From Nitrospirota bacterium (GTDB taxonomy: Bacteria; Nitrospirota; Thermodesulfovibrionia; UBA6902): a stretch of 37,987 bases of DNA. Under the pieces are notes generated by a model. It made no database searches. It was not told the DNA's origin and was given only the letters and a program-made list of their open reading frames with translations. The DNA is taken from assembly GCA_016222905.1 (NCBI GenBank), contig JACRPZ010000039.1, positions 1-37,987 of the forward strand. The letters are read 5' to 3'. Below are positions 11,025 through 32,833 of this stretch, piece after piece (position 1 is the stretch's first letter; each line of letters starts with the position of its first letter). The translations under genes and the position numbers were made by a program.

Positions 11025-11316
11025 ATCCCTTTTCCTTCAGCTCGGCGATAAACGCCTCTGCATCTTTCTTCAGAACTATTGGCTCGACATCGAATATCCC
11101 GGCAAGTTCGGAAACTATTTCGTCAAGCATACTGCCTTCGCATCTTTTCCATATCTCGGTTCCGAGTATATTAAGCGACAGCATCATCCCGTTAAGGTAT
11201 AAAACAGATGTGCCGATCTTTTCGACATCTTCTCCTTTTTCCAGTCCTTCATAAGCCCGCGATTTGTATTCGTCCTCTTCCCTCCACATGACGTCAGGAT
11301 TCCTGAATATCTTCAT
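11008..11316 (-). CDS. PqqD-like protein, RiPP recognition element (102 aa)
   Basis: A small winged-helix protein of the PqqD fold, which in RiPP pathways binds the leader of a precursor peptide and presents it to the radical SAM enzyme. The family pattern is visible: 'VLYLNGMMLSLNILGTEIWK' then RCEGSMLDEIVSELAGIF, followed by a C-terminal helix FIAELKEKGYV. The start shares a base with the cupin stop and the end overlaps the radical SAM gene by 17 bases. Its presence is the main reason to look for a peptide substrate. Confidence 0.85.
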   Translation of the reverse strand: MKIFRNPDVMWREEDEYKSRAYEGLEKGEDVEKIGTSVLYLNGMMLSLNILGTEIWKRCEGSMLDEIVSELAGIFDVEPIVLKKDAEAFIAELKEKGYVRYG

Positions 11317-11642
11317 CAGTCTCCCACTGCTGTAAAAGACGCAATGACAAGGTTTTCATTTGACGAATTGCGTATAGCATGATCAACAAGGGGCTGAACG
11401 ACAACGATCTTACCGTTTCCGATCACCTGCTTCTCTCCTGCTATCGTGAATTCACCCTGACCCTCCATAACTATCCAGAGATGGTTATCGTGATGAGTAT
11501 GGGTTGTAATCTCCTGTCCGGGTTTCATGCAAATAAGGTTAATCTTTGCGTGTTTGTCCGACCATATTGTTTCCATGTGACGCTTTGCGTCATCAAACTT
11601 CTTGAGCTGATTAATATCCAAGATCAATGCCTTGTTCTTCAT
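11316..11642 (-). CDS. Single-domain cupin protein (108 aa)
   Basis: A small beta-barrel metal-binding protein. The two cupin motifs are clear: 'GQEITTHTHHDNHLWIVMEG' supplies three histidines and a glutamate, and PLVDHAIRNSS supplies the last histidine. It could be a sugar-nucleotide or small-molecule isomerase or dioxygenase, or a ligand sensor; the sequence does not decide. I start it at 11642 (MKNKALILD), because TTGGAGGCAATT lies directly before that ATG. A longer in-frame start at 11702 has no such site. It abuts the PqqD-like gene and may belong to the cassette. Confidence 0.85.
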   Translation of the reverse strand: MKNKALILDINQLKKFDDAKRHMETIWSDKHAKINLICMKPGQEITTHTHHDNHLWIVMEGQGEFTIAGEKQVIGNGKIVVVQPLVDHAIRNSSNENLVIASFTAVGD

Positions 11643-11712
11643 AATTGCCTCCAAGTGATTTGTTTTTGTAAAATTTATATGCCAACAGTTCCTGAATGGC
11701 ACTATCAGGAAG

Positions 11713-13647: not shown

Positions 13648-14754
13648 TCAATCCAATCCCGTCTGATATTCAGGCGCAAGGCCTTTATCTCTTTCACGAT
13701 AAAGCAGCCCAGCAGCAAACAGGAAAATAAACCCGGCTAAAACCGTGATCTTCCCCCAGAATGGAACCGCAGTAGAGGTCGCCGCGATTCCCCAATTCTG
13801 CACAAGCGCTCCGCCGACAAGCATACCCATAACCGCTGCACCTGCATCGGTGTCGCCCTGTCCGGAGAGTACTAACTGTCTTAGCGGGCATCCCTTAATA
13901 AGAACAGAGCCGAAGCCGACAAGCCCCATGCCGAGAGCATCCCATAAATAATTTTCAGATGAACCCGCCATTACAGCAGCATTAAAAGAGAATTGACCGG
14001 TAAGTAAATTCGCAAACAGCGCAGTCAGGAAGAATGCTCCTATAGCCACCAAAAGCCCCGATGATTTAGGGCAGTTGTAAACTTCTTTCGGCCCCCACAA
14101 TAACAATCTTGCCAGTCCGCCTGTAACGCAAAAGCCTGATATTTGAGCGAATGCTCCTATAAGCAGGCCGAATAATAATGACATCCATACCGGCGCATGA
14201 AGCGCAGCAGAACCCTTTGTGCTTGTATTTATGAACGGGGCCTTAAATATAAGCAGGACAAAAAGTACAAACATTAGAACTGGAATGATAAAACCGTTTG
14301 CACGCTGCGCATCTGACGGCCTTCCGAGCCTGAAACCTCGTTCAAGAAACTGCAAACCTGTCCACACACCAGCTGCAAGACCTATAACACCGGTTAGGGC
14401 TGAAAAATCTCCGGCAGATATTCGCAATATTAATTTTATCGGACAGCCGATGAATACCGAGCAGCCTATAATCAGAAAGACCCCGATAAAAAATCTTAGA
14501 AGCGGGGAACTGCCGGAAGTCACTTTAAATTCTTTTGTGAAAAGAGAAGTGAAAAATGAACCCAGCACAAATGCGATTATTTCCGGCCTGATGTACTGCA
14601 TCCTTATATCATCGTGAAGTCCGACGGCCCCGGCTATATTTCTCATGAAGCATGAGACACATATACCGGTGTTCGGCGGGTTGCCGAAGTAAGAAAGCAG
14701 AACCGCTCCTATGCCGAGCATGCTGCCGGTTATTATGAATTTTGCTTTACCCAC
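13648..14754 (-). CDS. yedE: YedE-family putative selenium/sulfur transporter (368 aa)
   Basis: A polytopic membrane protein of the YeeE/YedE family (about 10 helices). The opening FGNPPNTGICVSCFMRNIAG followed by AVGLHDDIRMQYIRPEI is the signature of the YedE subgroup linked to selenium metabolism (TIGR04112 in my memory). Further conserved spots are IGCPIKLILRISAGD, 'FAQISGFCVTGGLARLLLWG' and LIKGCPLRQLVLSGQGD, with the pore cysteines used for thiosulfate-like ions in YeeE. The cargo here could be a selenium or sulfur compound. No selD or selenoprotein factors are in the window. It overlaps the upstream TPR gene by 8 bases. Confidence 0.85.
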   Translation of the reverse strand: MGKAKFIITGSMLGIGAVLLSYFGNPPNTGICVSCFMRNIAGAVGLHDDIRMQYIRPEIIAFVLGSFFTSLFTKEFKVTSGSSPLLRFFIGVFLIIGCSVFIGCPIKLILRISAGDFSALTGVIGLAAGVWTGLQFLERGFRLGRPSDAQRANGFIIPVLMFVLFVLLIFKAPFINTSTKGSAALHAPVWMSLLFGLLIGAFAQISGFCVTGGLARLLLWGPKEVYNCPKSSGLLVAIGAFFLTALFANLLTGQFSFNAAVMAGSSENYLWDALGMGLVGFGSVLIKGCPLRQLVLSGQGDTDAGAAVMGMLVGGALVQNWGIAATSTAVPFWGKITVLAGFIFLFAAGLLYRERDKGLAPEYQTGLD

Positions 14755-16213: not shown

Positions 16214-16231
16214 TTTGTATTTCCTCTCCCG

Positions 16232-18672: not shown

Positions 18673-21231
18673 TTAAGGGGTGTGTTGTTTCTCCCCATCC
18701 AATTTCACAGGCTCTCTTAAATACGGCTCGTAAATAACCTTGCCTATCCCCGGCTCATCGTTGCCGTCAAATATCGTCTCGCCAGGCTCGCTGTTTCCCC
18801 ACCAGTTTTCTTTTGCGTCTATATCTTCCGTATTGAAATCGCCGGCCTTTACATTGTAGGTCATGTTTGAATAAATATTGTTCCTCTTAATGGTCAGGCC
18901 GCTCCCTTTTTCTCTCACAAATATGCCGACCTCGTTATTTAATATAACATTTTCCTCTATCAATGCATTTCCGAAGTATGACCTGATTCCGACTTTATTT
19001 TCTTTAAATAATGAACGGTTGATTTCAACAGGCCCGCTTCTGAATCTTATGCCGCCCTCGTTGTGTATGAAACGGCTGTTTGAGATTTTCAGATTGGTAA
19101 AGTGGCTGTGAATCGCCCATGTCGCATATCCAAAATCGCAATATGAGAACTCGCTTCCGTCCGCATGCTCAATAAGTATTTCGTCCCACAGATTGTCTTC
19201 GTTTTTTTCAGATGCAGTAAATACTATCCTTTTTTCACTTGTTCCGACCGCAAGAATCTTTCCGCCTGAAATCTTCAACCCTCCCCCTTTTAAAAATATA
19301 ACCTTAGCGCCGGGAGCGATTTCAAGGGTTGAACCGGAAACAGTCACAGGATTTTTTAAATGAATGCCTGTGTGCCAAACAACATCCGTATAAATATTTT
19401 TTACCGGCCATGTAAATATTGAAGAAATTTCATTTTCAGGAGAATGAAAGACCTTGCCTCTTTTAGATTCATCCTCTTTATCGTAAATTACTGAGGCCAC
19501 ATCTTTGATTCCCCACCAGTTCGATGGTGCGAAAACGTCGCTGCCGCTTTCGTTCTCAACTGCATGAAGACCGTTTCCGGCAATGTTGTTTCCTGTTATC
19601 GTTCCAGTAAACGATTGTATGCCGATGCCCCTTTCGCCGTTTTCAGAAATTAAATTATCTTTAATCACTGCTCCGGCATTGTGCAGATTGATGCCGTTAA
19701 ATCCGTTGCCCTGAATAAAATTCCCGCTGATATCGAGGTTGTCAACTCCCTTGAGCGACAGGCCTGATTCATAGTTATTCACAATGGCATTACTGTTGAA
19801 CCTGCCGTGAAACGCATCGTTTACCATCAGTCCGAATCTGTTGCATCCGACAAAATTTTCCTCCGCAGTGGTTATGCCTTCCCTGATCTTAAATCCCTCA
19901 TTCATGTTGTTTAAAACCGTATTGTTCTTTGCATTCAGATTCGCACGGAAAAAATTCACGCCGTTGATGTTGTCGGAGACATAATTGCCGGTAAAGTTTA
20001 CCTCTGAATCCCTGCCTTTGATTCCGTTTTTGTTGCCGTAGATATGGCTTCCTCTTATTTCAACGGCTGATTCCTGAAACTGTATGCCGATATAATTATT
20101 CCTCAGAACGGATTCATTCACCATCACGTTTGAGAAGTGAAAATGCAGCCCTCTGTATGCGTCCTCTATCTGACAAAACTCCACAAGATTCTGCGCTCCG
20201 TCGCTGTTCATGATGTTGATAGAATCCCAGTCTCCGGTTCTTTTTTGTCTTTCTGCAGATCTAAAGATGATAGGCTCCTCTTTCGTGCCTTTCGCAATTA
20301 GAACGCCTTGCATCAGGATTCCGTTCTCTCCGATACCGTCATCGTTTGTATCTTTCATCTTAAATTCAACAACCGTGCCGGAGGCAATTATCAATCTGGA
20401 ATTTTCAGGCACTCTAATCAGCCCGTTAATCACTATCCTTCCACGCCAGACTGTATCTCCGAGCAAAACTTCATCGCCGTATTCTTTGCTTATTTCTTTA
20501 TCCTGAATTTTATACTCCCTCATGAAATTAAAATCCTTCTTGTTACACGAACCAGCATGTTTTGCAATCAAACTCTTACTGCCGGATCTATCAGTATCAG
20601 GTTTCATAACAAGATTTTTTGTTTCTTCAAGCAAGTACAAATCCTTTTTCATGTTATGTTCAACGACGCTGTCCCTGAAATTAACCCGTGCGCCTGCAAA
20701 TGAAAAAACGCCGTAATCATTTTTTACGGCCTGTGTATTCTTCACGTTCACAAAAGTCTGCTGCCCATGCGCAACAAGGCCGTACCGGTTATTCTCAAGA
20801 ATAGAGTCCGTTAATTCAAGAGAACCGTTCATTATAAGAAGGCCTGTTTCCGCATCATCTATCCTGCACGCTTTTATATATGCCTTCCCTCCGTCAATAA
20901 TTATTCCAGCCCATCTGTCAGACATACCATTTTTCACTTGAAATACTACAGGCGCTTTCCTGGTTCCCTTGATCTCAAGCCTGCCCCGGATTGTCATCTC
21001 GGTCATGAATGAAAGGTATTCCGCCTCGCTCTTTGTCCTATCGGAAGGAATGATCTTTACCATTGTGCCGGATAGAATGGTGAGTGTAACGCCTTCAGGC
21101 ACAACGATGTCTTCTGAAAGAGTTATTTCGCCTTTCCAAACAGTGTCTATTATGATGGTTCTTCCTAAAGCGGGAAAAGGAAATAAAACAAAAAAGATGA
21201 GAAACAGGAGAGTCGTTTCCAAAAATTTCAT
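18673..21231 (-). CDS. Secreted right-handed beta-helix protein (852 aa)
   Basis: A signal peptide (MKFLETTLLFLIFFVLFPFP, ending ALG) is followed by three repeated units, each opening with '[DT][TV]VW..[IG]' and a capping motif (IDTVWKGEITLSEDI near residue 27; 'LLGDTVWRGRIVINGLIRVP' near 260; 'YTDVVWHTGIHLKNPVTV' near 615). Long runs of NosD/pectate-lyase-type coils follow: many 'N.i..N..Gi.l....n..i..N.i' turns. NWWG motifs ('SNWWGIKD', 'ENWWGNSEPG') end units two and three. It is most likely a surface or periplasmic carbohydrate- or surface-binding protein rather than an enzyme; no catalytic set is visible. It lies downstream of the HPC mini-gene and hairpin. Confidence 0.85.
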   Translation of the reverse strand: MKFLETTLLFLIFFVLFPFPALGRTIIIDTVWKGEITLSEDIVVPEGVTLTILSGTMVKIIPSDRTKSEAEYLSFMTEMTIRGRLEIKGTRKAPVVFQVKNGMSDRWAGIIIDGGKAYIKACRIDDAETGLLIMNGSLELTDSILENNRYGLVAHGQQTFVNVKNTQAVKNDYGVFSFAGARVNFRDSVVEHNMKKDLYLLEETKNLVMKPDTDRSGSKSLIAKHAGSCNKKDFNFMREYKIQDKEISKEYGDEVLLGDTVWRGRIVINGLIRVPENSRLIIASGTVVEFKMKDTNDDGIGENGILMQGVLIAKGTKEEPIIFRSAERQKRTGDWDSINIMNSDGAQNLVEFCQIEDAYRGLHFHFSNVMVNESVLRNNYIGIQFQESAVEIRGSHIYGNKNGIKGRDSEVNFTGNYVSDNINGVNFFRANLNAKNNTVLNNMNEGFKIREGITTAEENFVGCNRFGLMVNDAFHGRFNSNAIVNNYESGLSLKGVDNLDISGNFIQGNGFNGINLHNAGAVIKDNLISENGERGIGIQSFTGTITGNNIAGNGLHAVENESGSDVFAPSNWWGIKDVASVIYDKEDESKRGKVFHSPENEISSIFTWPVKNIYTDVVWHTGIHLKNPVTVSGSTLEIAPGAKVIFLKGGGLKISGGKILAVGTSEKRIVFTASEKNEDNLWDEILIEHADGSEFSYCDFGYATWAIHSHFTNLKISNSRFIHNEGGIRFRSGPVEINRSLFKENKVGIRSYFGNALIEENVILNNEVGIFVREKGSGLTIKRNNIYSNMTYNVKAGDFNTEDIDAKENWWGNSEPGETIFDGNDEPGIGKVIYEPYLREPVKLDGEKQHTP

Positions 21232-21279: not shown

Positions 21280-21312
21280 GGCGGTGAAAGCTTAAAATAA
21301 ACTTTCACCGCC
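21280..21312 (-). terminator. Strong hairpin between the HPC mini-gene and the beta-helix gene
   Basis: An 11-bp perfect stem (GGCGGTGAAAG/CTTTCACCGCC) with an 11-base loop. Downstream on the minus strand comes CGGCTGTTTTATTTCC, a modest T-rich tract. It could end transcription, or protect the 3' end of a short peptide message while allowing some read-through to the beta-helix gene. Confidence 0.6.
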
Positions 21313-21348: not shown

Positions 21349-21411
21349 TCAGCAGGGATGAACAGCGGCGCTCCCGATTATTCTGGGAGGAACATATTTT
21401 ATCTTCTTCAA
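21349..21411 (-). CDS. HPC mini-gene 1: 20-residue peptide ending His-Pro-Cys
   Basis: The short frame TTG...TGA encodes (M)KKIKYVPPRIIGSAAVHPC. It is preceded by a near-perfect Shine-Dalgarno (GGAAGGAGGTT) with 5-6 bases before TTG. A second copy, encoding MKKKYVPPKITGSAVVHPC (24538-24597), occupies the same position in a duplicated cassette. The shared pattern is KK-x-KYVPP-[RK]-I-x-GSA-x-VHPC, with different bases in between, so the peptide sequence is under selection. It is flanked by a carboxypeptidase-regulatory-like gene upstream and, after the hairpin at 21280-21312, a beta-helix gene downstream. It has no signal peptide. I do not recognise a named family. A conserved C-terminal cysteine makes it a candidate substrate for the PqqD/radical SAM cassette, or a tiny metal- or haem-ligand peptide. 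Confidence 0.75.
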   Translation of the reverse strand: MKKIKYVPPRIIGSAAVHPC

Positions 21412-21465
21412 ACCGAACCTCCTTCCGCGTCCTGCCGCAGAATCAACGGCAGGCTTGATGATTTA

Positions 21466-22335
21466 TTATTTCTTATTTTCAATCTTCTTCTCCATCTCCT
21501 GTTTAATCTTTTTCATTTGCTCTTCCCGGATATTCTCGTCTGTTCCTGCTCCCGGCTGATGCTTGGGACCCATATCAAGATGCCTTATCACCTTTATGTC
21601 TACGCCCTTTGTAATCTCGCCTGTCTTAGCGGTTGCGGCAGTAGGCTTTTCTTCTCCGTAGCCTCCCATGATCGACCCTGGGATAGGCGGGCCGCCTCCG
21701 TACACGTCTCTCACTCTTAAATAATACTGACCTCCTTTGTCTACGGTGATAATATATTTGCCGTCCTTTCCGGTTTTAACAGAAGTAAAGGTCGGGATTC
21801 CGGTCATTGTCTCGGTATAGTATGCAAATAATATCGCCCCCTCAACAGGTTTGCCAGCCATATCAAGGATGGTGCCTGATATTCCTGTGACTCCCTCTGG
21901 GAGTGAACGTTTATACGGGACCGCTTCTCCGAGAGTACCAAGCTTCACTTCCTTGCCATTCTCAATAACGTGCTGCATCGGATTACCTGCCTTATCTTCA
22001 CTGATAAAGAAATAATCGCCATCCAGCGGCGGCCCTGCTTTTTCGGCAGATACCCTTTTAATAGCTCCGATGTAATACTTACCGGCAGGAAGCGATACAC
22101 GAAACCTGCCTTCAGAATTAACTTCGTCAATTCCGTCCGGGACCCTGAAGTATTTATCGGTAGACGGAGGAGGCCCGGATTTAGCATCAAAGAAGACTAT
22201 CATGGCATTGGATAACGGCACGTTATCCTTGATCATTATCTGACCTGATATCCAGCCGGTCTCAATTTCCGCATGGATCGCAGTTGCTGATAACACTGCA
22301 ATGAGAAATGACAGAAATATAATTTTTCTAATCAT
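21466..22335 (-). CDS. Secreted carboxypeptidase-regulatory-like protein (289 aa)
   Basis: A signal peptide (MIRKIIFLSFLIAVLSATAI, ending HA) is followed by two beta-sandwich units: 'ISGQIMIKDNVPLSNAMIVF' ... 'GRFRVSLPAGKYYIGAIKR' and 'ISGTILDMAGKPVEGAILFA' ... 'GKYIITVDKGGQYYLRVRD'. The C-terminus is a charged helix (QMKKIKQEMEKKIENKK). It is a clear paralogue of the 244-aa protein at 24.7-25.4 kb; both share KY[FI]RVPD, EGDYFFI-like and 'TGKDGKY' blocks. Together with the mini-gene and a beta-helix gene it forms one copy of a duplicated cassette. It overlaps the upstream 687-aa gene by 8 bases. Confidence 0.8.
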   Translation of the reverse strand: MIRKIIFLSFLIAVLSATAIHAEIETGWISGQIMIKDNVPLSNAMIVFFDAKSGPPPSTDKYFRVPDGIDEVNSEGRFRVSLPAGKYYIGAIKRVSAEKAGPPLDGDYFFISEDKAGNPMQHVIENGKEVKLGTLGEAVPYKRSLPEGVTGISGTILDMAGKPVEGAILFAYYTETMTGIPTFTSVKTGKDGKYIITVDKGGQYYLRVRDVYGGGPPIPGSIMGGYGEEKPTAATAKTGEITKGVDIKVIRHLDMGPKHQPGAGTDENIREEQMKKIKQEMEKKIENKK

Positions 22336-24391
22336 GCTGCCTCCCTTTTCCGGCCCCTGCGTTTTTAACCGGGGTACTATAAAATGGTTTGTAGATTGCG
22401 CCGCCTAATGAAACGTCTGTGTTTTCATCGAATATGGCATTCTTGATATCCTCGTCTCTGTCGCTTCCCCACCAGTTGTCACTTAGCAATATATCATATC
22501 CCTGTCTCTCACCCAGCCTGTAATTATATTCAGTATTATACGAAATATTGTTGTAAGAGACAATAAATTGTTTGAGCGGAAGGGCGTCTTTCTTGTCGAA
22601 TGTGTTCGAAAAACCGACTATATTCTGATTCGACGGCACAAGGAAAATGCCGACATCGTTATTTCTGATGTTGTTGTATGTGATCTCGACAGGCTCTTCA
22701 ATCCTTGTATGTCTGATGCCGTAAGTGTTATAAAAAATGTCATTATGATCAATGCTAAGCTCAGCCCTGCCGAACCTTATGCCTTCATAATTATTTCGAA
22801 AGACAGAGTCTTTAATTACCGCTTTTGAGAAATGAACCTGAACGCCGGTAAAGGCATATTCGAACATGCAGTGTCTTATAATACTCTCATCGCCTGACAC
22901 AAAAAACAGTACGTAAGACCAGTCCGCTTTATCCGGCATTGTCTCAGCGGAAGTAAACCTGATGGGTCTTTTTGCAGAGCCCTGAGCCTCAAGCCTGCCG
23001 CTTACCTTTATCATGGCGTCTCCAACTCCGTCCCCTGTCCTGTCAATTTTCTTAAATCTGACCGTTGTCCCCGGAGCAATGGTTAGCGTTACTCCTCGGG
23101 CTACATGAACGATCCCGGAGATTAATATGTCCCGCTCCCATACGGTATTTATGCCGATAACTACATCCCCTTTGTATTCATGATTACTAACCTTCTTTTC
23201 TTTTAACTTCTTATCTCTTATTTCTGACTTCTTTATACTCTCCCCCATCACCCTGCTTACAGAAATATTTACAGCATCATGTTGTTTCTCATTCATTATT
23301 ACCGCGTGATTTGCGTTAGCTTCATAAAGCCCGTAGTACTCGCCTTTGACAGGGGCTTCCCCGACGAGCTGCCGGGCCAGCAGGTAATATGCGCCTTCTG
23401 CTGCGTTAATGGAGTAATACCCTTTCTCATCGGCTCTGACCATATAATCCGGCATGGTCCTAACGTAATGCATCTGAAACATATCCGAGAGATTTCCCTT
23501 GTAAGCCATGACATAGAGGTCTTTAACAGGGTCGCCATTCAAATCCGCTGCCCTTCCGCTTATCCTGAAGACATCCAGCGCCTCAGAGAGTTTATTCTCC
23601 CTGAACCTCATGCTGTCTGCGTCTGATTTTTTCACCAGAAGCGCAGGATAGGCTTCCTCATTAAGAAATGCCTTAAGGTCGTCTTTGGGATAACATGGAA
23701 TCTCCACCTGTGTTTCTTTTGAGTCCGCAATAGTAACCGGATTGCCTGCAAGATAACAGAAGAGGTCGCCCTTTTCCAGAGGGGTCATGCCATTGTTTCT
23801 GTTTCTCTTGCGCGCGATAACAACATATTCTCCGGGCTCAATGCTCATGCTGAAGATCCCGTTATCATCGGTCGCGCTCGTAAGGAAACCCATGCCCCTA
23901 AAAATAGAGTTTGGAGTTTGTAATTCGGAGTTAATAGTTAAAGCGGGAACGGGATAGATTGAAACCTGCGCGCCTTTGACAGGAGCGCCCTTGAAGAAGA
24001 CTTTACCTGAAAGTTTTGCAGAAGAAGATTCCTTTACATTCACTGCTGTTTCAGGAAGAGCCATAAATGGAACCCATAGGTTTTTGTCTTCAACCTTGAC
24101 CGGATTGGCTCCGTGATAGGAAAAATATTTTTTCTCATCATCCTGTCCTGACGCAATTAAATAATATATTCCTGACGGCAACTCTATTTTGAAGAATCCT
24201 TCTTTTTTGCCTGGGGCCGAAACATAAGCTGGAATTCCTTTTTTAATATCCTGAAACCTGCTATAAAATTGCACCTTTGAGTCTTTAAGCGGACCCTCTT
24301 CAGAAAGCACAACCCCTTCAATAACAGCGGAATATGAAGATATGGCCGAAAAAAAGATTACTAGCAAAAAAACTATTACGTGAATCTGCAA
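22328..24391 (-). CDS. Secreted carboxypeptidase-regulatory-like plus beta-helix protein (687 aa)
   Basis: A signal peptide (MQIHVIVFLLVIFFSAISSY) is followed by three carboxypeptidase-regulatory-like units up to about residue 375 (each with '.ik...G.Y.l.a', for example 'GFFKIELPSGIYYLIASG', 'GIFSMSIEPGEYVVIARK', 'GYYSINAAEGAYYLLARQ'). A right-handed beta-helix unit then starts at 'INTVWERDILISGIVHVARG' and ends with SDNWWGSDRDEDIKN. The helix is homologous to units of the 852-aa protein. At about residue 155 the stretch TINSELQTPNSIF lies between two beta strands; it looks like a translated non-coding repeat (23905-23942). A charged linker (KKSEIRDKKLKEKKVSNHE) also looks secondary. The protein is probably surface-exposed; function unknown. 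Confidence 0.8.
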   Translation of the reverse strand: MQIHVIVFLLVIFFSAISSYSAVIEGVVLSEEGPLKDSKVQFYSRFQDIKKGIPAYVSAPGKKEGFFKIELPSGIYYLIASGQDDEKKYFSYHGANPVKVEDKNLWVPFMALPETAVNVKESSSAKLSGKVFFKGAPVKGAQVSIYPVPALTINSELQTPNSIFRGMGFLTSATDDNGIFSMSIEPGEYVVIARKRNRNNGMTPLEKGDLFCYLAGNPVTIADSKETQVEIPCYPKDDLKAFLNEEAYPALLVKKSDADSMRFRENKLSEALDVFRISGRAADLNGDPVKDLYVMAYKGNLSDMFQMHYVRTMPDYMVRADEKGYYSINAAEGAYYLLARQLVGEAPVKGEYYGLYEANANHAVIMNEKQHDAVNISVSRVMGESIKKSEIRDKKLKEKKVSNHEYKGDVVIGINTVWERDILISGIVHVARGVTLTIAPGTTVRFKKIDRTGDGVGDAMIKVSGRLEAQGSAKRPIRFTSAETMPDKADWSYVLFFVSGDESIIRHCMFEYAFTGVQVHFSKAVIKDSVFRNNYEGIRFGRAELSIDHNDIFYNTYGIRHTRIEEPVEITYNNIRNNDVGIFLVPSNQNIVGFSNTFDKKDALPLKQFIVSYNNISYNTEYNYRLGERQGYDILLSDNWWGSDRDEDIKNAIFDENTDVSLGGAIYKPFYSTPVKNAGAGKGRQHD
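23905..23942 (-). repeat. Small in-frame repeat insertion
   Basis: Coding for LTINSELQTPNSI on the minus strand. The DNA (runs of GGAGTTTG and TTCGGAGTT on the plus strand) has the look of 'aactccgaact' type intergenic repeats. It interrupts a carboxypeptidase-regulatory-like unit without shifting the frame. Confidence 0.45.
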
Positions 24392-24415
24392 TTTAATAAC
24401 AGCCTCTTGAAAAAG

Positions 24416-24481
24416 TCGTCATACCCGTGCTTAAGTACCTACTGTTGGTGAAAACCTGCCTATCGGCAGGCGGAAATCCAG
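24416..24481 (+). repeat. Dispersed repeat, copy B (intergenic)
   Basis: GTCATACCCGTGCTTAAG, then CTACTGTTGG, a perfect small hairpin CCTGCC-TATC-GGCAGG (24455-24470) and ATCCAG. It is the inverse counterpart of copy A at 17811-17860, which has lost the hairpin. It lies in the 308-base gap between two secreted-protein genes, 57 bases after the HPC mini-gene 2 stop. The rest of that gap holds the mini-gene and leader sequence only. Confidence 0.65.
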
Positions 24482-24537
24482 AGTGTTGTTTAACCCATTG
24501 AAAATACTGCATCCCAAAGTTTTCCCAAGTTTTCTAC

Positions 24538-24597
24538 TCAGCACGGATGTACAACTGCGCTGCCGGTGATCTTTGGCGGAACATATTTTTTCTTCAT
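24538..24597 (-). CDS. HPC mini-gene 2: 19-residue peptide ending His-Pro-Cys
   Basis: The short frame ATG...TGA encodes MKKKYVPPKITGSAVVHPC, directly behind AAAGGAGGTTGGAAG, an excellent ribosome binding site. Its homologue is the mini-gene at 21349-21411. Of the residues shared, KYVPP, I, GSA and VHPC are identical, while the nucleotide sequences differ at many third positions. It sits between the 244-aa carboxypeptidase-regulatory-like gene and the 687-aa beta-helix gene, the same order as copy 1. The hairpin of dispersed repeat B follows. The basic start, central proline pair and terminal Cys are the only recognisable features; there is no signal peptide and no membrane segment. Not a family I can name; candidate modified peptide. 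Confidence 0.78.
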   Translation of the reverse strand: MKKKYVPPKITGSAVVHPC

Positions 24598-24699
24598 CTT
24601 CCAACCTCCTTTCAAGAATCTATTTCAAACTGCACCCTGATACTTCTTCTTATACAATACAATCAGGGTAAAGCAGTAGCATCAATTCATGGACCGCAA

Positions 24700-25434
24700 T
24701 CACTCTATCCCCTGTTTTACGACTTTCATGTTTATTCCCCTGAGGATCTCCCCTGTTTTGACAGCAACACGTTCCGTCGATTCCGGGACGTATATTCCCA
24801 GGGAGTCAACAGCGTTCAGGGTATATGTCCCTCCCTTATGAACCCTCAGGAAATATTTCCCGTCTTTCCCGGTCCAGTTGGATACAAAAGATACTTCCCC
24901 TTCATTTGCCAGCCTTAAATTCGCAAATACAACCATACCTTCGGTCGGGGCGCCCTTCCCGTTTAATATAACTCCCTCAATTGAAGTAACACCTTCGCTG
25001 TCAGTGATCCCCTTATATAAAACTGCCTCTGAAACAGTGCCTATATCCAATGTTTCATTTTCGTTGACCACATATGCCCTGGGCATCCCGGCTGCTTCCT
25101 GAATGATAAAGAAATAATCTCCCTCTTTTGGAGGGCCGGGGCCTTTTCCTGATATTTTCTTTATTCCTCCAAAATAATATGTACCCGGAGCGATCTCAAC
25201 TGAAAATTTACCGTCGTCATCAATCTCGGCTATGTGGTCCGGAACCCTGATATATTTGTCAGGCAAAGGCAATGGGCCTTTTGCATCATATATGAAAACC
25301 GCTCCGTCCGACATCGGACCGCCGCCTTTAATCATCATATTCCCTGTAATTCGACCCTGTCTTACTTCTTCAGCGGTACTTATGGAAGCAAAACATACTG
25401 ACAAAACAAACAAAAACAGGATCGTCTTTTTCAT
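24700..25434 (-). CDS. Secreted carboxypeptidase-regulatory-like protein (244 aa)
   Basis: A signal peptide (MKKTILFLFVLSVCFASIST, ending AEE) is followed by two beta-sandwich units: 'ITGNMMIKGGGPMSDGAVFI' ... 'GKFSVEIAPGTYYFGGIKK' and 'IEGVILNGKGAPTEGMVVFA' ... 'GKYFLRVHKGGTYTLNAVD'. It is a paralogue of the 289-aa protein at 21.5 kb but lacks its charged C-terminal helix. It is the first member of the other cassette copy and is followed by HPC mini-gene 2. It probably coats or links the outer-surface cytochrome apparatus; this is inferred only from neighbours. Confidence 0.8.
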   Translation of the reverse strand: MKKTILFLFVLSVCFASISTAEEVRQGRITGNMMIKGGGPMSDGAVFIYDAKGPLPLPDKYIRVPDHIAEIDDDGKFSVEIAPGTYYFGGIKKISGKGPGPPKEGDYFFIIQEAAGMPRAYVVNENETLDIGTVSEAVLYKGITDSEGVTSIEGVILNGKGAPTEGMVVFANLRLANEGEVSFVSNWTGKDGKYFLRVHKGGTYTLNAVDSLGIYVPESTERVAVKTGEILRGINMKVVKQGIE

Positions 25435-25492: not shown

Positions 25493-28400
25493 CTACTCTT
25501 CGCACGTTTTGTCTCCCGTCTGATATGCAGGAGTTGTAACTGACGCCTCATTGCTGTACGGTGTTTTATCCTGACCCCTGAAGGCCCTGACCCTGTATGT
25601 ATAGGCTTTATCCGGCTCTATGGACAGGGTGTCGGTAAAGGTAATTACATTGGGAGCAAGCGTTGCTATCTTTACAAACGTGCCGTTCCATATCTTAACT
25701 TCCACTTCAAAACCGTCTTCATCAGCTGAGTTGTCAACCCAGTCAAGCTTTATCTTCATGGAATTAAGCGCCGTGGCTGTCAGGCTTGTAGGCTTTGCCG
25801 AGAAGGTCAGGTCACAAGAGACGCTGCTGTAATCGGTAGTCCATCCGCATGACGCTGTCTTGTACGCCCTTACACGATAGCAATAGTTTACAGACGGCGT
25901 CAGGCCGGTATTGATGTAGGAGATTGCGTTTGCGGCTGCAGTGGTGATTTCAGTAAAGTTGATACACCCCGCGCCCTCGCACCTCTCGATCCTGAAACCG
26001 GTCTCATCGGTAGTGTTATCCGTCCATGTCAAGGTTGCGCTTGTATCAGTGGCTGCTGTTGCCGAGAAGCTGCCTGGTGGGGCAATGGCTGCTGTTGCCG
26101 CAGATGAGGTGCTGCTGTAACCTGAATCCCAGGCTGGCGATGTCTTGTACGCCCTCACCCTATAGTTGTAACTTATCGTATTGCATACAGATGTGTCCTG
26201 ATACGCTACCACGTTTGCCCCTACAGTATTTATCTGTGCAAAGTCGCTGCATCCCTCGCCTGCACATCTCTCAATCTTGAAGCCTGTCTCGCTCACTGTA
26301 TTATCTGTCCATGCAAGATTGATCTGCGTGGTACTTACCGTTGTAGCAGTAAACCCCGAGGGCGCTGTAATGCTTGTAGTTACAGATGGAGTATTGCTTG
26401 CGTTGCTTGCATCATCCCAGAAGCATGTTGCCGATTTGTACGCCCTCACCCGATATGTGTAAGTCGTTTCCGGTGTAAGGCCGGTATTATTGTATGTCGT
26501 TGCATTAGCCGCTGCAGTTGTCAGGATCGTAAAGTTACTGCATCCTGAACCTGTACACCTCTCGATCCTGAAGCCGGTCTCATCAGATGTTGTGTCTGTC
26601 CATGAAAGGTTGATCTGAACTTCAGAAATTCTCGTTGCCGTAAGCACAGACGCAAGCGGAGTGGGGGTCACCGCCGTTGCTGTGCCGCTGTAATTTGAGT
26701 CCCATTCACCGGTCTTATAAGCCCTCACCCTGTAACTGTAACTTGTTGCATTGCACACAGTTGCGTCCTGGTACGTCACTACATTTGCCCCGACTGTATT
26801 TATCTGTGCAAAGTCGCTGCACCCTGCTCCAGCACACCTCTCTATCTTGAACCCTGTCTCTGAACCGCTATTGTCCGTCCATGAGAGGTCTATCCGTGTG
26901 GTGTTCGCTGCTGTTGCCGCAAGCCCGGATGGAGGCACAATAAGGGTCGTCTCGGTACTTACATTGCTGTATTCCGTTTCCCAACTGCATGTAGCTGTCT
27001 TGTACTCCTTTATGCGGTAGCTGTAGGTCTCTCCCAGTGTAAGTCCCGTATTACTGTATGTTGTCACTCCGGCGCCCGGCGATGTCAGCGCTGTAAAGTC
27101 GCTGCAGCCGGAGCCTGTGCATCTTTCAATTACAAAGCCTGTCTCATCCGTTGCCGTGTCTGTCCATGAGAGATTTACAAATGTATCTCCCACTGTAGTT
27201 GAAAGCACAGGGGCCGTTATCCCGGGAGTCGTAACAGGGGCTTCATTGCTCGGCTGTGTCTCCCATGTAATGTCATATGTGTAGCAGGCTGATGTTTCTT
27301 CAGCTCCTGCGGATGCCGATGGCTCTGTGGCAGTGTATTTCTGCACGGTGATGAATTGTACAATTGCCTGATGGGAATATTGTGTAAAGGCAACACGCAT
27401 GGTTGCGTCACTATAGGTTGATGTGTCTTTTATCAAAGTCCAACTTCCGTATGCGCCGCCTTTGATATAGTATTTGGCGCCTGTGGCTTTAAGCTCTATC
27501 TTCACTTCATAAGTTGTGCTTGCAGCATATGTCCCGGTACCGGTCGTGTTATTCCCCTTTTCATAGGCAGTCAGACTATAATCGCTCCAGTATAATCCAT
27601 GCACAAGCTGCGTATAACTTGCATTTGCGGACTGATTTAGTTCCCATCCCATCATGAAGTGATTAGCCCCGGCTGTGTCGACTGCAATAGTGACCTTTGA
27701 ATATATCATCTTGTTGGCAGCCCTTGTGATCGTCTGGTTTGAAATGAGGGCCTTGTCCCAGGCGTCGCTAACATCATTTAGTATAAGGCCGTTATTCTGG
27801 GCTATGGAGTTATTCGGGTCAATCTCCGTCCATTTGGCTGTGTTAATAGTCGTTCCGGGGAAGTTATCAAAGAACTCAAATACAAGCGCCCCGTCACTTA
27901 TGCCCGTAGCGCTCGCGTTGCCGTAATACATGTAAACCGTATTGTTCGCCCCTGTCTTGACCCAGACCGTTGCAGATACGCCATCTGTCTTGCTTTCTAT
28001 CCAATATGGAAGTTCTGCAAATGCCGTAGTATCGTAAAACCGTATATCGTCAAAATCAGCCTGCATGTCCGCATCGTATGCAACAGTCACCTTTGTCTGA
28101 AAGTCAGCCTGGAAGTTCGTTATCGCAAGCGGCACACGCCTTGTCCAGCATCCGCCTCCACCGCCTGAAAGCCCTTCGTTGACCGCCTTGACGCGGTATC
28201 TGTAATCCATTGTATTGCATGCGGATGTATCTGAATATGTAATGCTGTTGCGCACGGGTCTTGCCAGTTCTGCAAAGTCGCTGCATCCCACGCCTGTACA
28301 GCGCTCCACCTTAAAGCCTGTTTCCGAGCCAGTATTGTCAGTCCATCCAAGATTTATCTGTGTTGTATTTGCAGGCGTTGCAGTCAATCCGCTTGGAGGC

Positions 28401-31400
28401 GAAACAGTTGTCGTAGTTCCTGTCGCTGTCCCACTATATCCGGTGGTCCATCCGCCATTGCATGTCGCGCTCTTGTAAGCGCGCACACGATAGTTATATG
28501 TCGTTGAGGGAGTAAGCCCTATGTCGTTATACGTGGTTGTGTTTGATGCAGCAGTTGCTATCTCTGTAAAATCACTGCATCCTGCTCCCGTGCATCTTTC
28601 TATTCTGAAGCCGGTCTCGTCTGAAGTGGGATCTGTCCATGTAAGCGTTATCTTCACCTCTGTTGCACCCGATGTCGCAAGGCTGCCGGGCGCTGAAGGC
28701 GCTGCTGTTGTTCTTGATACTGTGCCGCTGTAGCCTGAATCCCATTCACCTGTCTTGTACGCCCTTACACGGTACTGGTAATTCGTAGCGCTGCACACTG
28801 ATGTGTCCTGATATGTCACTATGCCTGCGGCAACTGTTGTTATCTCAGCAAAGTCGCTGCATCCCGCTCCTGTGCATCTTTCTATCTTAAACCCCGTCTC
28901 ACTTGCTGTGTTGTCCGTCCAGTTTAAATTGATCTGTGTTGTGTTTGGAGAGCTCGATGTCAGGCCTGATGGCGCTGATATGCTTGTCGTTGCCGCTCCT
29001 GTCCCGCTCGTGGTCTCCCATGAACAGGTTGCTGTCTTGTACGCCCTCACACGATATGTGTAAGTCGTTGATGATGCAAGGCCGGTGTTATTATATGTTG
29101 TTATTCCTGCCGCAAGCGATGTTATTTCCGCAAAGTCGGAACATCCGGCACCTGTACACCTGTCTACCTTGAAACCCATCTCATCGGATATCGTGTCAGT
29201 CCATGAAAGGTTGATCTGCACCTCTGAATTCCTCGTTGCAGTAAAACTTCCGGGCGCCGACGGATTTGCCGTTGTTGCGGACGCTGTACCGCTGTATGCG
29301 CTTTCCCACTGTGCGGTCTTGTATGCTACTATCCGGTAACTGTATGCAGTTGCCTTGCATACCGAAATGTCCTGATATGTGGTGGTGTTTGCTGCTACTG
29401 TTGTCAGTTCTGTAAAATCACTGCACCCTGCCCCGCTGCACCTCTCTATCCTGAAGCCGTCCTCTGCGCTGGTGTTATCAGTCCATGAAAGATTGACCTG
29501 CGTCGTGTTTGCAGCCGTTGCAGAAAGACCGCCTGGTGCTGAAGGGGTCAGTGTGGTCGTGAGCTTCTCTGTCCACACTGACGACTCCCCGTTATTCATG
29601 AACGCCTGCACCCTGTAACAATACTGGCTCCCTATATTGAGAAGCGTATCGGAATATGACGTGGCATTTGCGGCTGCGGTGTTTATCAGCACCCACGGAT
29701 TTACTGAATCACAGGCCCCGACCCTTCTCTCTACATAATAGCCGTCTTCAACCCCTGAGTTGTCTGACCATGTAAGCCCTACTGTCGTGTATGAAGGCTC
29801 TGCGTTAAGCGGCACCGGAGGCTGCAGCTGATATCCGCTCACTTTAAGAACTATATAATCAGCATTGCCGCTTGCATTGGTTGTATGTCCTCCTATGAAT
29901 GCCTCCCCCATGTAATTGACTGTAATCGAGGATGCCTCATCATTGCCGTTTGCTGCTCCGTTATAGATCATACCTCCGCTGAAGTCCCCTTCTGCGTTAT
30001 ACCATACTGAAAGCACATCTGTGTTGCTCCCGCCATTTGTATAACCAGCTATATGAATATTGCCTGAGCGATCCATTGCCGCTGCTGCCACAAAGTCATC
30101 GCTTGAGGGCCTGTCTAATGTCCTTTGCCATAATTCATTTCCGCCTGTGTCATACCTGATAACGTGAAAGTCATTATTGCCCGATGAGCTAAGCGCTGTT
30201 CCTGCAACAACTACTTCAGCGGTTACTGAGTCAACTTTCACGATCATTGCCTCATCAATACCATCTGCAGCTCCGTTATAACTGCGCTCCCATATCCTCG
30301 CCCCGGTTGCGCCGTTGTACTTGATAGTGTAGAAGTCTTCGTTGCCGCCTGCAGTTACCGAGGAACCTGTAACGTAAAGATTCCCTGATGAATCTACTGC
30401 AAGCGAACGCGTAAAGTCATCGCCTGTGCCTGCCCCGTTAAAGACGTCTGTCCAGATGACCGCGCCTGTGCTGCCGTTATACTTCCTTGTGAAATAGTTA
30501 TAGTACAGACCGACTTTTGTATATCCCGTCACAAATATATTTCCCGATGAGTCAAAGGCCACTGCTGAAGGATAATCATTACCGCCTCCGTCATACGGCA
30601 TTGCGGCCCAGGAGCGCGTACCGTTATTGAGATACTTTACAACATATATGTCATCATTCCAGCTCGCGTTCTTTCCGTAACCAACTACTACATAGTTATT
30701 ATTGCCGTCGCTCGATACGTCCACTACGCTTGACCGGTCGTCATCCCCGGCCGGCCCGTTGTACTTGTCTGTCCAGTCTTCAGGAGCTCCTGTGGAAGGA
30801 TACCTTAGAGTGTAGATATCATTAGTGTTTCCGGCGCCTCCTCCAAACATGTAAGAATACCCTGACACCAAAATGCCATTATTGCCATCCGCCACTACGG
30901 TCTCCGCAACATCCATATCGTTTTGATCGCTGTCATATCTGGCGCCCCATATGTCCACCCCAGTCTGTCCGTTTATTTTTACCGTGTAATAATCAAACTG
31001 GCCTGCTGTGGAATAGCTGAAGCCCGTGGCTACAGGATTGTTGTCCGGCCCTGCAGCCATGGCCGTCACATAATCATCCCCGTTATCACCCCCGTTGTAT
31101 ATATAAGCCCATGCCGGTGAAGTGTAGGTAACCACGGTTGTCACAGCGTAATCTTCATTGCTGTAATGCGAGTCGCCCTGAGATGCGTTGTAGGCCCTCA
31201 CCCTGTAAAAGTATTTTGTGTTGGAAGTGAGTCCTGTATCGTTGTACGCTGTAACGTTAGCGCTAACAGTAGTAATTTGTGCATACACGCCGAGGTCTCC
31301 TATCTTCCGCTCGATCCTGAACCCGTCTTCCGAGGAAGAGTTGTCCGCCCACGAGAGATTTATCTGTGTTACCGACGCTGTCTCCGCATTAAGCGCCGTC

Positions 31401-32833
31401 GGCGGATTCAAGAGTCCGGCGTCATATTTTATTGCATGGTAGTCATGGTCCGATGATCCGGACGTCCACATGTCTGTCCAGCCAGCAACTATCACTTCGC
31501 CTGACGATGTTATGCCGATACCTGCCGGCCTGTCGTCTTTGTCAGCACTGCCGTTATAAGTTTTCTGCCAGAGAAGGTCCCCGTCTGTCTTTGTATATTT
31601 GATGGTCAGATAGTCATAGTTGTTTCCTGCTTCATTATATGTGTCGCCGGTTACGAAGACGTCTCCGGAATTATCCACCGCAATTCCCACAGCCCTGTCG
31701 CTGTTGCTGCCTGAAGAGTTGTATGTATGGTTCCATTGATTTGCGCCCGTGCTACCGTTATGCCTTGCGGTATAAAAATCATTCGTTCCGCCCGCAGTGA
31801 ATGTATAGCCTGTGAAGTATACGTCTCCTGCGGAGTCAATGAGCATGTCCGCCGGTTCGTCCGCATATCCGCCGTTGTAGGTCTGCTCCCAGAGTATTGC
31901 GCCTGCGGCGCTGCTGTATTTTACAAGGTAGATGTCTTTGTTTGCTCCGTTGAACGTGACTCCGGCAACCACAACGTTGCCTGATGAATCCATGCGCACT
32001 GTGTCGCCCCTGTCGTCACCTGAGACTGACTTTCTCTTTTCCCAGATTAAATCACCGCTGAAATTATATTTAACTGTGAGCATGTCAAAATCAGGGGTGC
32101 CGTTCTGGGATTCACCTGTTACGGCGATACCATCAACTCCCGCTATGATTGATGCGGCCCTGTCATGGCCGTCCGCACTGCCGTTGAATGTCTTCTGCCA
32201 TATCGGCGTCCCGTCAGGGTTGGGACCGTCGGGCCCGTATTTAAGTATGATGTAGTCGTCTTTTGCGTTAGCGGCCTGAATGCTGCCGCCAATGTAAATG
32301 TTGTTAAGGCTGTCTACCGCGACAGAGACCCCATAATCATTGCCGTTGACTGTTGAGTTATAGGTGTGCTGCCACAAAACTGCGCCGGCAGATGAGTCGT
32401 ACTTGATTGTGTGAATATCGTAATTTGTGCCATTCCAGGCATAACCTGTAACTATTACATTATTGCTTGAATCCAGGGTAAGGGCAATGGCAACCGCATG
32501 ATCGTCTCCTCCTGTTTTGTCATATGTCCTGCTCCACAAAATTCCTGTGCCGTCGGACTTGTATTTGGTCGTGTAGTAATCATCCGAGCCGGATTGATCT
32601 GATGCGCCTGTTATTATCACGCTGCCGGATGAATCAATAACCATTGCTGACGCCTCCTGCTTGCCGGTCTGCGCATCGCCGTACTGCCAGATTACATCGC
32701 CACCGGTGGCGTACGCAAATTGTGTGAACGATAAAGCAAAAGCTAAAAAGAATAGCAATAATATCTTGAATTTTAATATTTCAATCTTATACATGACTTT
32801 GTCTTTCATTTCATTGATTCCTGTTTTTACCAT
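25493..32833 (-). CDS. Giant secreted SBBP-propeller/FN3/DUF2341 protein (2446 aa)
   Basis: A signal peptide lies within residues 10-43 (ILLLFFLAFALSFTQFAYA). Domain order: eight SBBP repeats (about 45-470, each like 'D.sGnv.vtG.......Dy.t.KY'), FN3, eight more SBBP repeats (571-1001), FN3, five FN3 domains, a DUF2341/concanavalin-like block (about 1568-1864: 'CWTRRVPLAITNFQADFQTK', 'NTVYMYYGNASATGISDG'), and six more FN3 domains to the C-terminus. Each SBBP set could form one propeller. Most FN3 domains carry the pair ERC.G.GC, suggesting disulfides. No sorting or anchor signal is visible at the end. ATG 32833 overlaps the cytochrome stop by 7 bases; ATG 32809 (MKDKVMYK) follows AGGAATCAATGAA and may be the true start. 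It probably forms a surface adhesin or scaffold for the cytochrome. Confidence 0.88.
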   Translation of the reverse strand: MVKTGINEMKDKVMYKIEILKFKILLLFFLAFALSFTQFAYATGGDVIWQYGDAQTGKQEASAMVIDSSGSVIITGASDQSGSDDYYTTKYKSDGTGILWSRTYDKTGGDDHAVAIALTLDSSNNVIVTGYAWNGTNYDIHTIKYDSSAGAVLWQHTYNSTVNGNDYGVSVAVDSLNNIYIGGSIQAANAKDDYIILKYGPDGPNPDGTPIWQKTFNGSADGHDRAASIIAGVDGIAVTGESQNGTPDFDMLTVKYNFSGDLIWEKRKSVSGDDRGDTVRMDSSGNVVVAGVTFNGANKDIYLVKYSSAAGAILWEQTYNGGYADEPADMLIDSAGDVYFTGYTFTAGGTNDFYTARHNGSTGANQWNHTYNSSGSNSDRAVGIAVDNSGDVFVTGDTYNEAGNNYDYLTIKYTKTDGDLLWQKTYNGSADKDDRPAGIGITSSGEVIVAGWTDMWTSGSSDHDYHAIKYDAGLLNPPTALNAETASVTQINLSWADNSSSEDGFRIERKIGDLGVYAQITTVSANVTAYNDTGLTSNTKYFYRVRAYNASQGDSHYSNEDYAVTTVVTYTSPAWAYIYNGGDNGDDYVTAMAAGPDNNPVATGFSYSTAGQFDYYTVKINGQTGVDIWGARYDSDQNDMDVAETVVADGNNGILVSGYSYMFGGGAGNTNDIYTLRYPSTGAPEDWTDKYNGPAGDDDRSSVVDVSSDGNNNYVVVGYGKNASWNDDIYVVKYLNNGTRSWAAMPYDGGGNDYPSAVAFDSSGNIFVTGYTKVGLYYNYFTRKYNGSTGAVIWTDVFNGAGTGDDFTRSLAVDSSGNLYVTGSSVTAGGNEDFYTIKYNGATGARIWERSYNGAADGIDEAMIVKVDSVTAEVVVAGTALSSSGNNDFHVIRYDTGGNELWQRTLDRPSSDDFVAAAAMDRSGNIHIAGYTNGGSNTDVLSVWYNAEGDFSGGMIYNGAANGNDEASSITVNYMGEAFIGGHTTNASGNADYIVLKVSGYQLQPPVPLNAEPSYTTVGLTWSDNSGVEDGYYVERRVGACDSVNPWVLINTAAANATSYSDTLLNIGSQYCYRVQAFMNNGESSVWTEKLTTTLTPSAPGGLSATAANTTQVNLSWTDNTSAEDGFRIERCSGAGCSDFTELTTVAANTTTYQDISVCKATAYSYRIVAYKTAQWESAYSGTASATTANPSAPGSFTATRNSEVQINLSWTDTISDEMGFKVDRCTGAGCSDFAEITSLAAGITTYNNTGLASSTTYTYRVRAYKTATCSWETTSGTGAATTSISAPSGLTSSSPNTTQINLNWTDNTASETGFKIERCTGAGCSDFAEITTVAAGIVTYQDTSVCSATNYQYRVRAYKTGEWDSGYSGTVSRTTAAPSAPGSLATSGATEVKITLTWTDPTSDETGFRIERCTGAGCSDFTEIATAASNTTTYNDIGLTPSTTYNYRVRAYKSATCNGGWTTGYSGTATGTTTTVSPPSGLTATPANTTQINLGWTDNTGSETGFKVERCTGVGCSDFAELARPVRNSITYSDTSACNTMDYRYRVKAVNEGLSGGGGGCWTRRVPLAITNFQADFQTKVTVAYDADMQADFDDIRFYDTTAFAELPYWIESKTDGVSATVWVKTGANNTVYMYYGNASATGISDGALVFEFFDNFPGTTINTAKWTEIDPNNSIAQNNGLILNDVSDAWDKALISNQTITRAANKMIYSKVTIAVDTAGANHFMMGWELNQSANASYTQLVHGLYWSDYSLTAYEKGNNTTGTGTYAASTTYEVKIELKATGAKYYIKGGAYGSWTLIKDTSTYSDATMRVAFTQYSHQAIVQFITVQKYTATEPSASAGAEETSACYTYDITWETQPSNEAPVTTPGITAPVLSTTVGDTFVNLSWTDTATDETGFVIERCTGSGCSDFTALTSPGAGVTTYSNTGLTLGETYSYRIKEYKTATCSWETEYSNVSTETTLIVPPSGLAATAANTTRIDLSWTDNSGSETGFKIERCAGAGCSDFAQINTVGANVVTYQDATVCNATSYSYRVRAYKTGEWDSNYSGTATAVTPTPLASVLTATRISEVQINLSWTDTTSDETGFRIERCTGSGCSNFTILTTAAANATTYNNTGLTPETTYTYRVRAYKSATCFWDDASNASNTPSVTTSITAPSGFTATTVSTTQINLAWTDNTVSETGFKIERCAGEGCSDFAQINTVGANVVAYQDTSVCNTISYNYRVRAYKTSPAWDSGYSSTSSAATAAIAPPGSFSATAATDTSATLTWTDNTTDETGFRIERCEGAGCINFTEITTAAANAISYINTGLTPSVNYCYRVRAYKTASCGWTTDYSSVSCDLTFSAKPTSLTATALNSMKIKLDWVDNSADEDGFEVEVKIWNGTFVKIATLAPNVITFTDTLSIEPDKAYTYRVRAFRGQDKTPYSNEASVTTPAYQTGDKTCEE
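25560..29560 (-). repeat. Tandem FN3 repeats with alternating two-domain period
   Basis: FN3 domains 3-13 alternate between an A type (PSGL.A...NTTQINL.WTDN..SETGFKIERC ... 'VVTYQDTSVCNA' ... GEWDSGYS) and a B type (APGS..A...EVQINLSWTDT.SDETGFRIERC ... 'TTYNNTGLTP' ... TATCSWET). The repeated unit is therefore a pair of domains, about 560 bases, at least three times. The DUF2341 block lies in the middle. Confidence 0.7.

Follow-up and report, generated by a model that had tools for sequence, protein, structure and literature searches.

HPC peptides, a family of minute genes in Nitrospirota and Desulfuromonadia, as very probable substrates of the GeoRSP radical SAM system

On a 37,987-nucleotide stretch of contig JACRPZ010000039.1 from a Nitrospirota bacterium (assembly GCA_016222905.1; the whole stretch is called the window below), two minute frames, each ending in the residues His-Pro-Cys (HPC), raise the question of what peptides of this size are made for. 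Judged from genomic comparison, these HPC peptides are very probably the substrates, i.e. the precursors, of GeoRSP, a peptide-modifying radical S-adenosylmethionine (SAM) system encoded on the same strand about 10 kb beyond the two frames.

Both frames, of 19–20 codons, were located on the minus strand where a sequence-only reading of the window had placed them, and the strong Shine-Dalgarno sequence that it had claimed for each was found as a near-consensus site 5′ of the start. Comparison of gene 1 with gene 2 gave 8 differences per 11.3 synonymous sites and just 3 per 33.7 nonsynonymous sites, which bears out the proposed coding selection on both mini-genes. The window motif occurs twice in the 2.84-Mb host genome, both times in these two genes, and at least 214 distinct homologous genes are present in the fetched loci; therefore, the pair is not a product of chance. 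By domain annotation, each mini-gene does stand between a carboxypeptidase-regulatory-like (CarboxypepD_reg-type) and a beta-helix gene, and the duplicated cassette was recognized in the 40% identity of the CarboxypepD_reg-type proteins CpdA and CpdB and in the relatedness of the two beta-helix proteins. The claim that a hairpin follows each copy held for gene 2, behind which a 15-bp terminator-like stem lies, and failed for gene 1, whose 3′ stretch contains a 7-bp stem and folds no better than shuffled sequences (z = +0.1); a hairpin after every HPC gene was thus rejected as a general rule. An inverted repeat, GCCTGCC-GATA-GGCAGGC, is located at 24454–24475, 3′ of peptide gene 1, and is possibly a dispersed repeat; a similar palindrome (CTGCCG...CGGCAG) was noted upstream of peptide gene 2. 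Rfam, run over the whole window, returned no known riboswitch or RNA family, so that no known riboswitch explains the intergenic sequences.

Homologues were collected by pattern searches of relatives, of a species-level genome collection (115 stretches) and of 244 Desulfuromonadia genomes, and the family was analysed in detail on 159 HPC genes, corresponding to 127 distinct peptides. The sequence-only reading had made its case depend on homologues outside the window that keep their Shine-Dalgarno sequence; besides the number of genes given above, such a site was found on approximately 95% of the HPC genes analysed. Every record listed from the species-level collection was a Nitrospirota or a Geobacter/Desulfuromonas-type delta-proteobacterium, and within the sets searched the family was seen only in Nitrospirota and Desulfuromonadia. 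The peptides are mostly 18–20 aa long (range about 18–21 aa) and follow the consensus M-K-K-x-x-Y-[VMI]-x-P-[RK]-[VI]-V-G-S-[AS]-[NVSD]-V-H-P-C-stop, in which Y, P, H, P, C and the stop are essentially invariant; the cores are near-identical within and between genomes and nearly invariant across the two phyla. Family-wide, the proportion of synonymous differences (pS) was 0.77, i.e. near saturation, and that of nonsynonymous differences (pN) was 0.22, giving a pN/pS of about 0.28, and therefore the HPC peptides are under coding selection.

Because Y, P, [IV], G, [IV], H, P, C and stop were prescribed by the search pattern, their invariance was checked again with each of these positions relaxed across 1.8 Mb of loci; as the loci had mostly been fetched via the motif, this check bears mainly on paralogues. 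A single variant was obtained, at G (MKKAYAKPRIVSWGTVHPC), and two more G variants (YSKPRVTASGSIHPC and YSRPKVTESTSLHPC) came from a relaxed genome search. Divergent paralogues in which the conserved Gly is changed (IVSWGTVHPC, VTASGSIHPC and VTESTSLHPC) were recorded at L258 (about 26–83, plus strand), G154:C49:11190-11237 and G124:C1:1519306-1519353; the one in G154 is found close behind the gene of the GeoRSP radical SAM enzyme. None of the NCBIfam and Pfam models matched the HPC peptides at E values up to 10.

GeoRSP was scored as present where a radical SAM protein exceeded the TIGR04303 cut-off, plus the split or fragmented cases G017 and G271. Among 61 Nitrospirota genomes, TIGR04303 was found in 17 (16 over the cut-off and G017, split over contig ends), and HPC genes were present in 16 of these 17 vs none of the 44 GeoRSP-negative genomes (Fisher, 8e-14). 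Within four genera in which GeoRSP is variable, GeoRSP and HPC agreed in 22 of 22 genomes (exact p = 4e-5), so that common descent alone cannot explain the co-occurrence. In the 244 Desulfuromonadia genomes, HPC genes were present in 77 of 79 GeoRSP-positive genomes (including G271, with GeoRSP in two adjacent fragments) vs 7 of 165 others. All 10 named peptide-bearing delta-proteobacterial genomes, among them Geotalea toluenoxydans, Pelotalea chapellei and Geomobilimonas luticola, had TIGR04303 over the cut-off.

The peptide gene is moreover found inside the GeoRSP operon. From 196 HPC genes with upstream sequence, 22 directly follow the radical SAM enzyme gene (rSAM303) and 17 directly precede the gene of the SPASM protein (SPASM304); in many Desulfuromonadia the order YedE-PqqD-rSAM-HPC-SPASM places one copy between two GeoRSP enzyme genes, and in one Nitrospirota genome (G048) rSAM303 is followed after about 100 bp by the start of the peptide. 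Discrete recognition elements (RREs) of ribosomally synthesized and post-translationally modified peptides (RiPPs) bind the motif [Y/W]xxPx[L/V/I/F/A] (PMC13381572), and W/Y/LxxP motifs were assigned also in the PqqD group (PMC12710340). A discrete PqqD-type RRE is encoded by GeoRSP, and the YxxPx[IV] that is invariant in HPC peptides fits the published motif (PMC13381572). HPC shows several features of an RRE-dependent RiPP precursor: a short peptide under coding selection, a Shine-Dalgarno sequence, in many Desulfuromonadia adjacency to RRE and enzyme (in the window the distance is about 10 kb), and the RRE motif. Because of the co-occurrence, the place inside the operon and the recognition motif, HPC is very probably a GeoRSP substrate, and the earlier idea of a precursor peptide, for which a GeoRSP setting had been suspected, is strongly supported. 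Hitchhiking, in which the peptide would share an electron-transfer island with GeoRSP without being its substrate, would account for the clustering of GeoRSP, cytochrome, FN3 and HPC genes in the window and in several Nitrospirota; it is improbable, since many copies on other contigs away from GeoRSP nevertheless track it, in many genomes one copy separates the genes of two GeoRSP enzymes, and the peptide bears the RRE-binding motif.

Several points weigh against the substrate assignment. Its support is genomic throughout, and the modification of HPC is accordingly a prediction. Three GeoRSP-positive genomes (G040, G095 and G220) contain no recognisable HPC gene, and no variant peptide was found in their GeoRSP neighbourhoods; the GeoRSP substrate may be a different one there, or the peptide may have diverged. 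Conversely, an intact GeoRSP hit is missing from seven genomes that bear the peptide, which may be a matter of incomplete assemblies. Among the annotated GeoRSP neighbours there is neither a leader peptidase nor a dedicated exporter, both common, though not universal, in RiPPs. Finally, the cytochrome role of the peptide discussed below is drawn from gene neighbourhood in partly chosen loci. A bacteriocin-type RiPP would likewise consist of a small precursor, an RRE and a radical SAM enzyme; this is hardly credible here, as the annotated loci show no adjoining exporter, immunity gene or protease and the core is nearly invariant across two phyla, unlike the variable cores of toxins.

Regarding the enzymes, rSAM303 contains CxxxCxxC and seven conserved SPASM cysteines, and PqqE is the nearest solved structure (E 4e-24). 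In SPASM304 the seven SPASM cysteines are retained without CxxxCxxC, and its AlphaFold model (pLDDT 88) is matched by PqqE and SuiB, among other maturases of the radical SAM/SPASM type; because the modelled fold is PqqE/SuiB-like but CxxxCxxC is missing, it is probably a degenerate, catalytically dead pseudoenzyme partner. In the proposed pathway, the HPC peptide of 18–21 aa would be made on its own, and the PqqD-type RRE protein of GeoRSP would bind its invariant YxxPx[I/V], where the motif match is observed. The PqqE-like rSAM303, helped by the degenerate SPASM304, would then modify the C-terminal core ...G-S-x-x-V-H-P-C-COOH; the most plausible sites are the single Cys, the His or the adjacent Val/Asn. 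A search of the open literature gave no relevant paper on GeoRSP, TIGR04302-04304 or Geobacter radical-SAM RiPPs; the one paper in which the word GeoRSP occurs deals with an unrelated subject, and text matches to the peptide motif were unrelated abbreviations.

Further HPC copies, with a mean of 2.4 per genome in GeoRSP-positive Desulfuromonadia, are in many cases situated away from GeoRSP on other contigs. For the 176 HPC genes with a same-strand gene no more than 350 bp upstream, this neighbour encoded a multiheme cytochrome in 77 cases, a CarboxypepD-type protein in 25, rSAM303 in 22, an FN3 protein in 16 and another protein in 36 (including 6 FG-GAP/UnbV proteins), proportions that derive partly from chosen regions and are not unbiased; related genomes, too, are not independent. 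Multihemes made up 36% of first upstream vs 4% of first downstream genes. The suggestion that HPC genes lie upstream of beta-helix or FN3 genes proved too narrow: the feature kept across genomes is that the HPC gene comes immediately after a gene for a large secreted protein (multiheme cytochrome, FN3, CarboxypepD-type or FG-GAP) or after rSAM303.

This placement bears on the idea that the short frame is a regulatory leader, an attenuator or a translational-coupling open reading frame whose peptide has no function itself. The shortness of the frame, its strong Shine-Dalgarno sequence and the terminator-like hairpin after one window copy would suit such a role, which is nonetheless very unlikely. 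The HPC gene is located behind its partner gene, not before it, and 55 of 208 downstream neighbours are encoded on the opposite strand, so that a general role as leader peptide is excluded; conservation is at the level of amino acids, not codons; the other window copy has no hairpin; and the near-perfect tracking of GeoRSP would be left unexplained.

At position −5 of the peptides, in the same partly chosen loci, the ratio of polar to nonpolar residues was 65:12 behind cytochromes vs 14:27 behind FN3/Cpd genes (p = 8e-8), hence the peptide subtypes match the partner types. As the last step of the pathway, the extra precursor copies observed directly behind giant surface-protein genes would allow the product to be made together with the protein that it serves. 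The likeliest role is that of a peptide-derived group or ligand for the extracellular multiheme cytochrome and surface-protein machinery, and, as far as gene order can indicate, it is rather probable that the product serves neighbouring extracellular cytochromes or surface proteins. Alternatively, the matured peptide could be a freely diffusing product, such as a soluble redox cofactor like pyrroloquinoline quinone (PQQ) or mycofactocin, or a pheromone, with the dispersed copies only raising or tuning supply. Such a product is conceivable though doubtful: the PqqA-like size, the PqqE-like enzyme with a separate PqqD, the near-identical cores and the several copies per genome speak for it, while the copies right behind individual surface-protein genes and the partner-dependent residue at position −5 speak against it. 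The alternative concerns the last step of the pathway; the GeoRSP-substrate step is common to it and to the preferred explanation.

Cytochromes encoded upstream of HPC genes end in a lone Cys-His followed, after roughly 8–25 residues, by W-N-x-x-[TS]-P-W-COOH. This shared ending closes a domain of about 120 aa (consensus CSKCHxPHxSxLPRLMxTNCLDxxHRG...CHxxxxAxG...QxWNxxTPW), for which no Pfam or NCBIfam match above cut-off was obtained. The 244 Desulfuromonadia genomes were scanned with a strict DNA pattern including the stop, which matched in 48: 45 GeoRSP-positive genomes, 2 HPC-positive genomes without an intact GeoRSP hit, and 1 (G126) out of frame. In Nitrospirota, all in-frame tail matches with a true stop were in GeoRSP-positive genomes, so that in the searched sets the in-frame tail domain was confined to GeoRSP-positive or HPC-positive genomes, an association found after the fact. 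An HPC gene follows 50 of 65 tails in the loci within 350 bp, but most of these loci had been retrieved by way of HPC, and some tails have no HPC gene next to them. AlphaFold gave no usable model of the tail (pLDDT 42), and the cytochrome C-terminus matched nothing in a sequence search of the PDB. Tentatively, and with less confidence than the service role itself, an HPC-derived prosthetic group or ligand may be incorporated, via a dedicated C-terminal acceptor domain, into giant extracellular multiheme cytochromes and FN3 proteins; the acceptor would be the lone Cys-His with the terminal WNxxTPW in cytochromes and a near-terminal Cys in FN3 proteins.

Separately, it was observed that the FN3 proteins upstream of HPC genes (window, 25493–32833, minus strand; L190, L179, L185 and L321) have a conserved ...YSNEA..TPxYxxGDxTC-type end, where a single Cys lies within a few residues of the terminus. 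The domain of about 120 aa in the window cytochrome (32830–33279, minus strand) ends CH...WNxx[TS]xW-COOH and contains a second lone Cys (TNCLD). Genome G095, which has no HPC gene, does have cytochromes with the WNxxTPW tail.

The features of the window are collected in Table 1. Along the coding strand, the 32-heme cytochrome is followed by the FN3 protein, CpdA, HPC1, the Cpd/beta-helix protein, CpdB, HPC2, the beta-helix protein and CpdC, then by an OpuAC-like binding protein, a ResB-like protein, a PhnD-like binding protein, a TPR protein and the YedE-type transporter, and finally by an ArsP-type permease, the cupin and the GeoRSP trio PqqD-rSAM-SPASM.

Table 1 Features of the HPC and GeoRSP region (positions in the window)
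Feature	Position	Strand	Remarks
HPC peptide gene 1	24538..24597	(-)	MKKKYVPPKITGSAVVHPC-stop, 19 aa, ATG start
HPC peptide gene 2	21349..21411	(-)	(M)KKIKYVPPRIIGSAAVHPC-stop, 20 aa, TTG start
Shine-Dalgarno, peptide gene 1	24605..24612	(-)	AAAGGAGG, near-perfect, read directly from sequence
Shine-Dalgarno, peptide gene 2	21418..21426	(-)	GGAAGGAGG, near-perfect
Terminator-like hairpin, 3′ of peptide gene 2	21280..21312	(-)	15 bp, z = -5.6 vs shuffles
GeoRSP PqqD-family peptide chaperone / RRE	11008..11316	(-)	TIGR04302, 141 bits vs cut-off 100; Pfam PqqD
GeoRSP radical SAM/SPASM enzyme (rSAM303)	10011..11024	(-)	TIGR04303, 569.7 bits vs cut-off 400
GeoRSP SPASM protein (SPASM304)	9149..10021	(-)	Best model TIGR04304, E = 1.4e-65, 221 bits vs cut-off 300
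CpdA, CarboxypepD_reg-type secreted protein, upstream of peptide gene 1	24700..25434	(-)	
CarboxypepD_reg/DUF4198 and NosD-type beta-helix protein, downstream of peptide gene 1	22328..24391	(-)	
CpdB, CarboxypepD_reg-type secreted protein, upstream of peptide gene 2	21466..22335	(-)	
Beta-helix/NosD-type protein, downstream of peptide gene 2	18673..21231	(-)	
Giant FN3/SBBP surface protein	25493..32833	(-)	C-terminus ...TPAYQTGDKTCEE; homologues directly precede peptide genes elsewhere
Giant multiheme c-type cytochrome	32827..37914	(-)	32 CxxCH
C-terminal tail of the cytochrome	32827..32904	(-)	...CHGAATANGSANWPDNQKWNSVTEW-stop, variant of GeoRSP-associated ending
Cupin	11316..11702	(-)	Adjoins GeoRSP genes
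YedE-family sulfur/selenium transporter	13648..14754	(-)	TIGR04112, conserved GeoRSP neighbour

A YedE/Sulf_transp transporter recurs near GeoRSP in many loci, and at L249 a class-V aminotransferase (NifS/IscS, cysteine desulfurase type) adjoins SPASM304; these neighbours are hints that sulfur handling or chemistry may be linked to GeoRSP. The conserved GeoRSP neighbours (13648–17715, minus strand; L244–L253) comprise the YedE-type transporter, TPR, PhnD-like and OpuAC-like binding proteins and a ResB-like protein. Elsewhere on the minus strand of the window, a VapBC-like toxin-antitoxin pair (6381–7015) is flanked by a dihydrolipoyl dehydrogenase gene and by one of unknown function, and 427–4148 encodes, in tandem, two related membrane proteins (555 and 685 aa), each with TPR repeats at the C-terminus.

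GeoRSP has been named as a peptide-modifying system, and no described substrate was found in the open papers and libraries searched. The same sources seem to contain no description of the HPC precursor family, of its scattering next to partner genes or of the cytochrome C-terminal domain. The HPC genes are small enough for gene callers to miss, and the peptide is invariant enough for synthesis and direct test. Its precursors are dispersed around the genome, often one per partner protein, in contrast to a single biosynthetic cluster. The association ties the peptide chemistry of a radical SAM system to the extracellular electron transfer of metal-reducing Desulfuromonadia and Nitrospirota, and it suggests that the electron-transfer machinery has a component derived from a peptide that has gone unrecognised; if the acceptor-domain proposal were true, extracellular electron transfer would involve a redox or heme-accessory cofactor of a new kind.

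Among known systems, GeoRSP itself (NCBIfam TIGR04302/TIGR04303/TIGR04304) is the one to which the window enzymes belong and which the HPC peptide tracks and adjoins, the peptide being covered by no model of NCBIfam or Pfam. PQQ biosynthesis resembles it in the very short precursor, the separate PqqD-type RRE and in PqqE as nearest solved relative of rSAM303. In PqqA, however, a Glu is cross-linked to a Tyr (PMC10906245), whereas the HPC core ends in VHPC, with no Glu/Tyr pair near the C-terminus in any core analysed; PqqB/C/F were not identified in the stretches examined, and a second, degenerate SPASM protein is present instead. The giant cytochromes of Geobacter with CxxxxCH/CxxCH (PF09698 and related) have heme repeats such as the HPC partner cytochromes carry, but the C-terminal domain of the partners matches no family above cut-off. 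Leaders of lasso peptides and other RRE-dependent RiPPs share the motif YxxPx[L/V/I/F/A] (PMC13381572) with HPC; the downstream spacing differs, the HPC core is tiny and conserved, and the protease and asparagine-synthetase-like cyclase of lasso systems are absent among the annotated window genes. With sactipeptides and ranthipeptides the HPC system has in common a SPASM-type radical SAM maturase and a conserved core Cys, in HPC a single one that is always the C-terminal residue, and this invariant Cys would be compatible with a thioether of the sactipeptide/ranthipeptide type.

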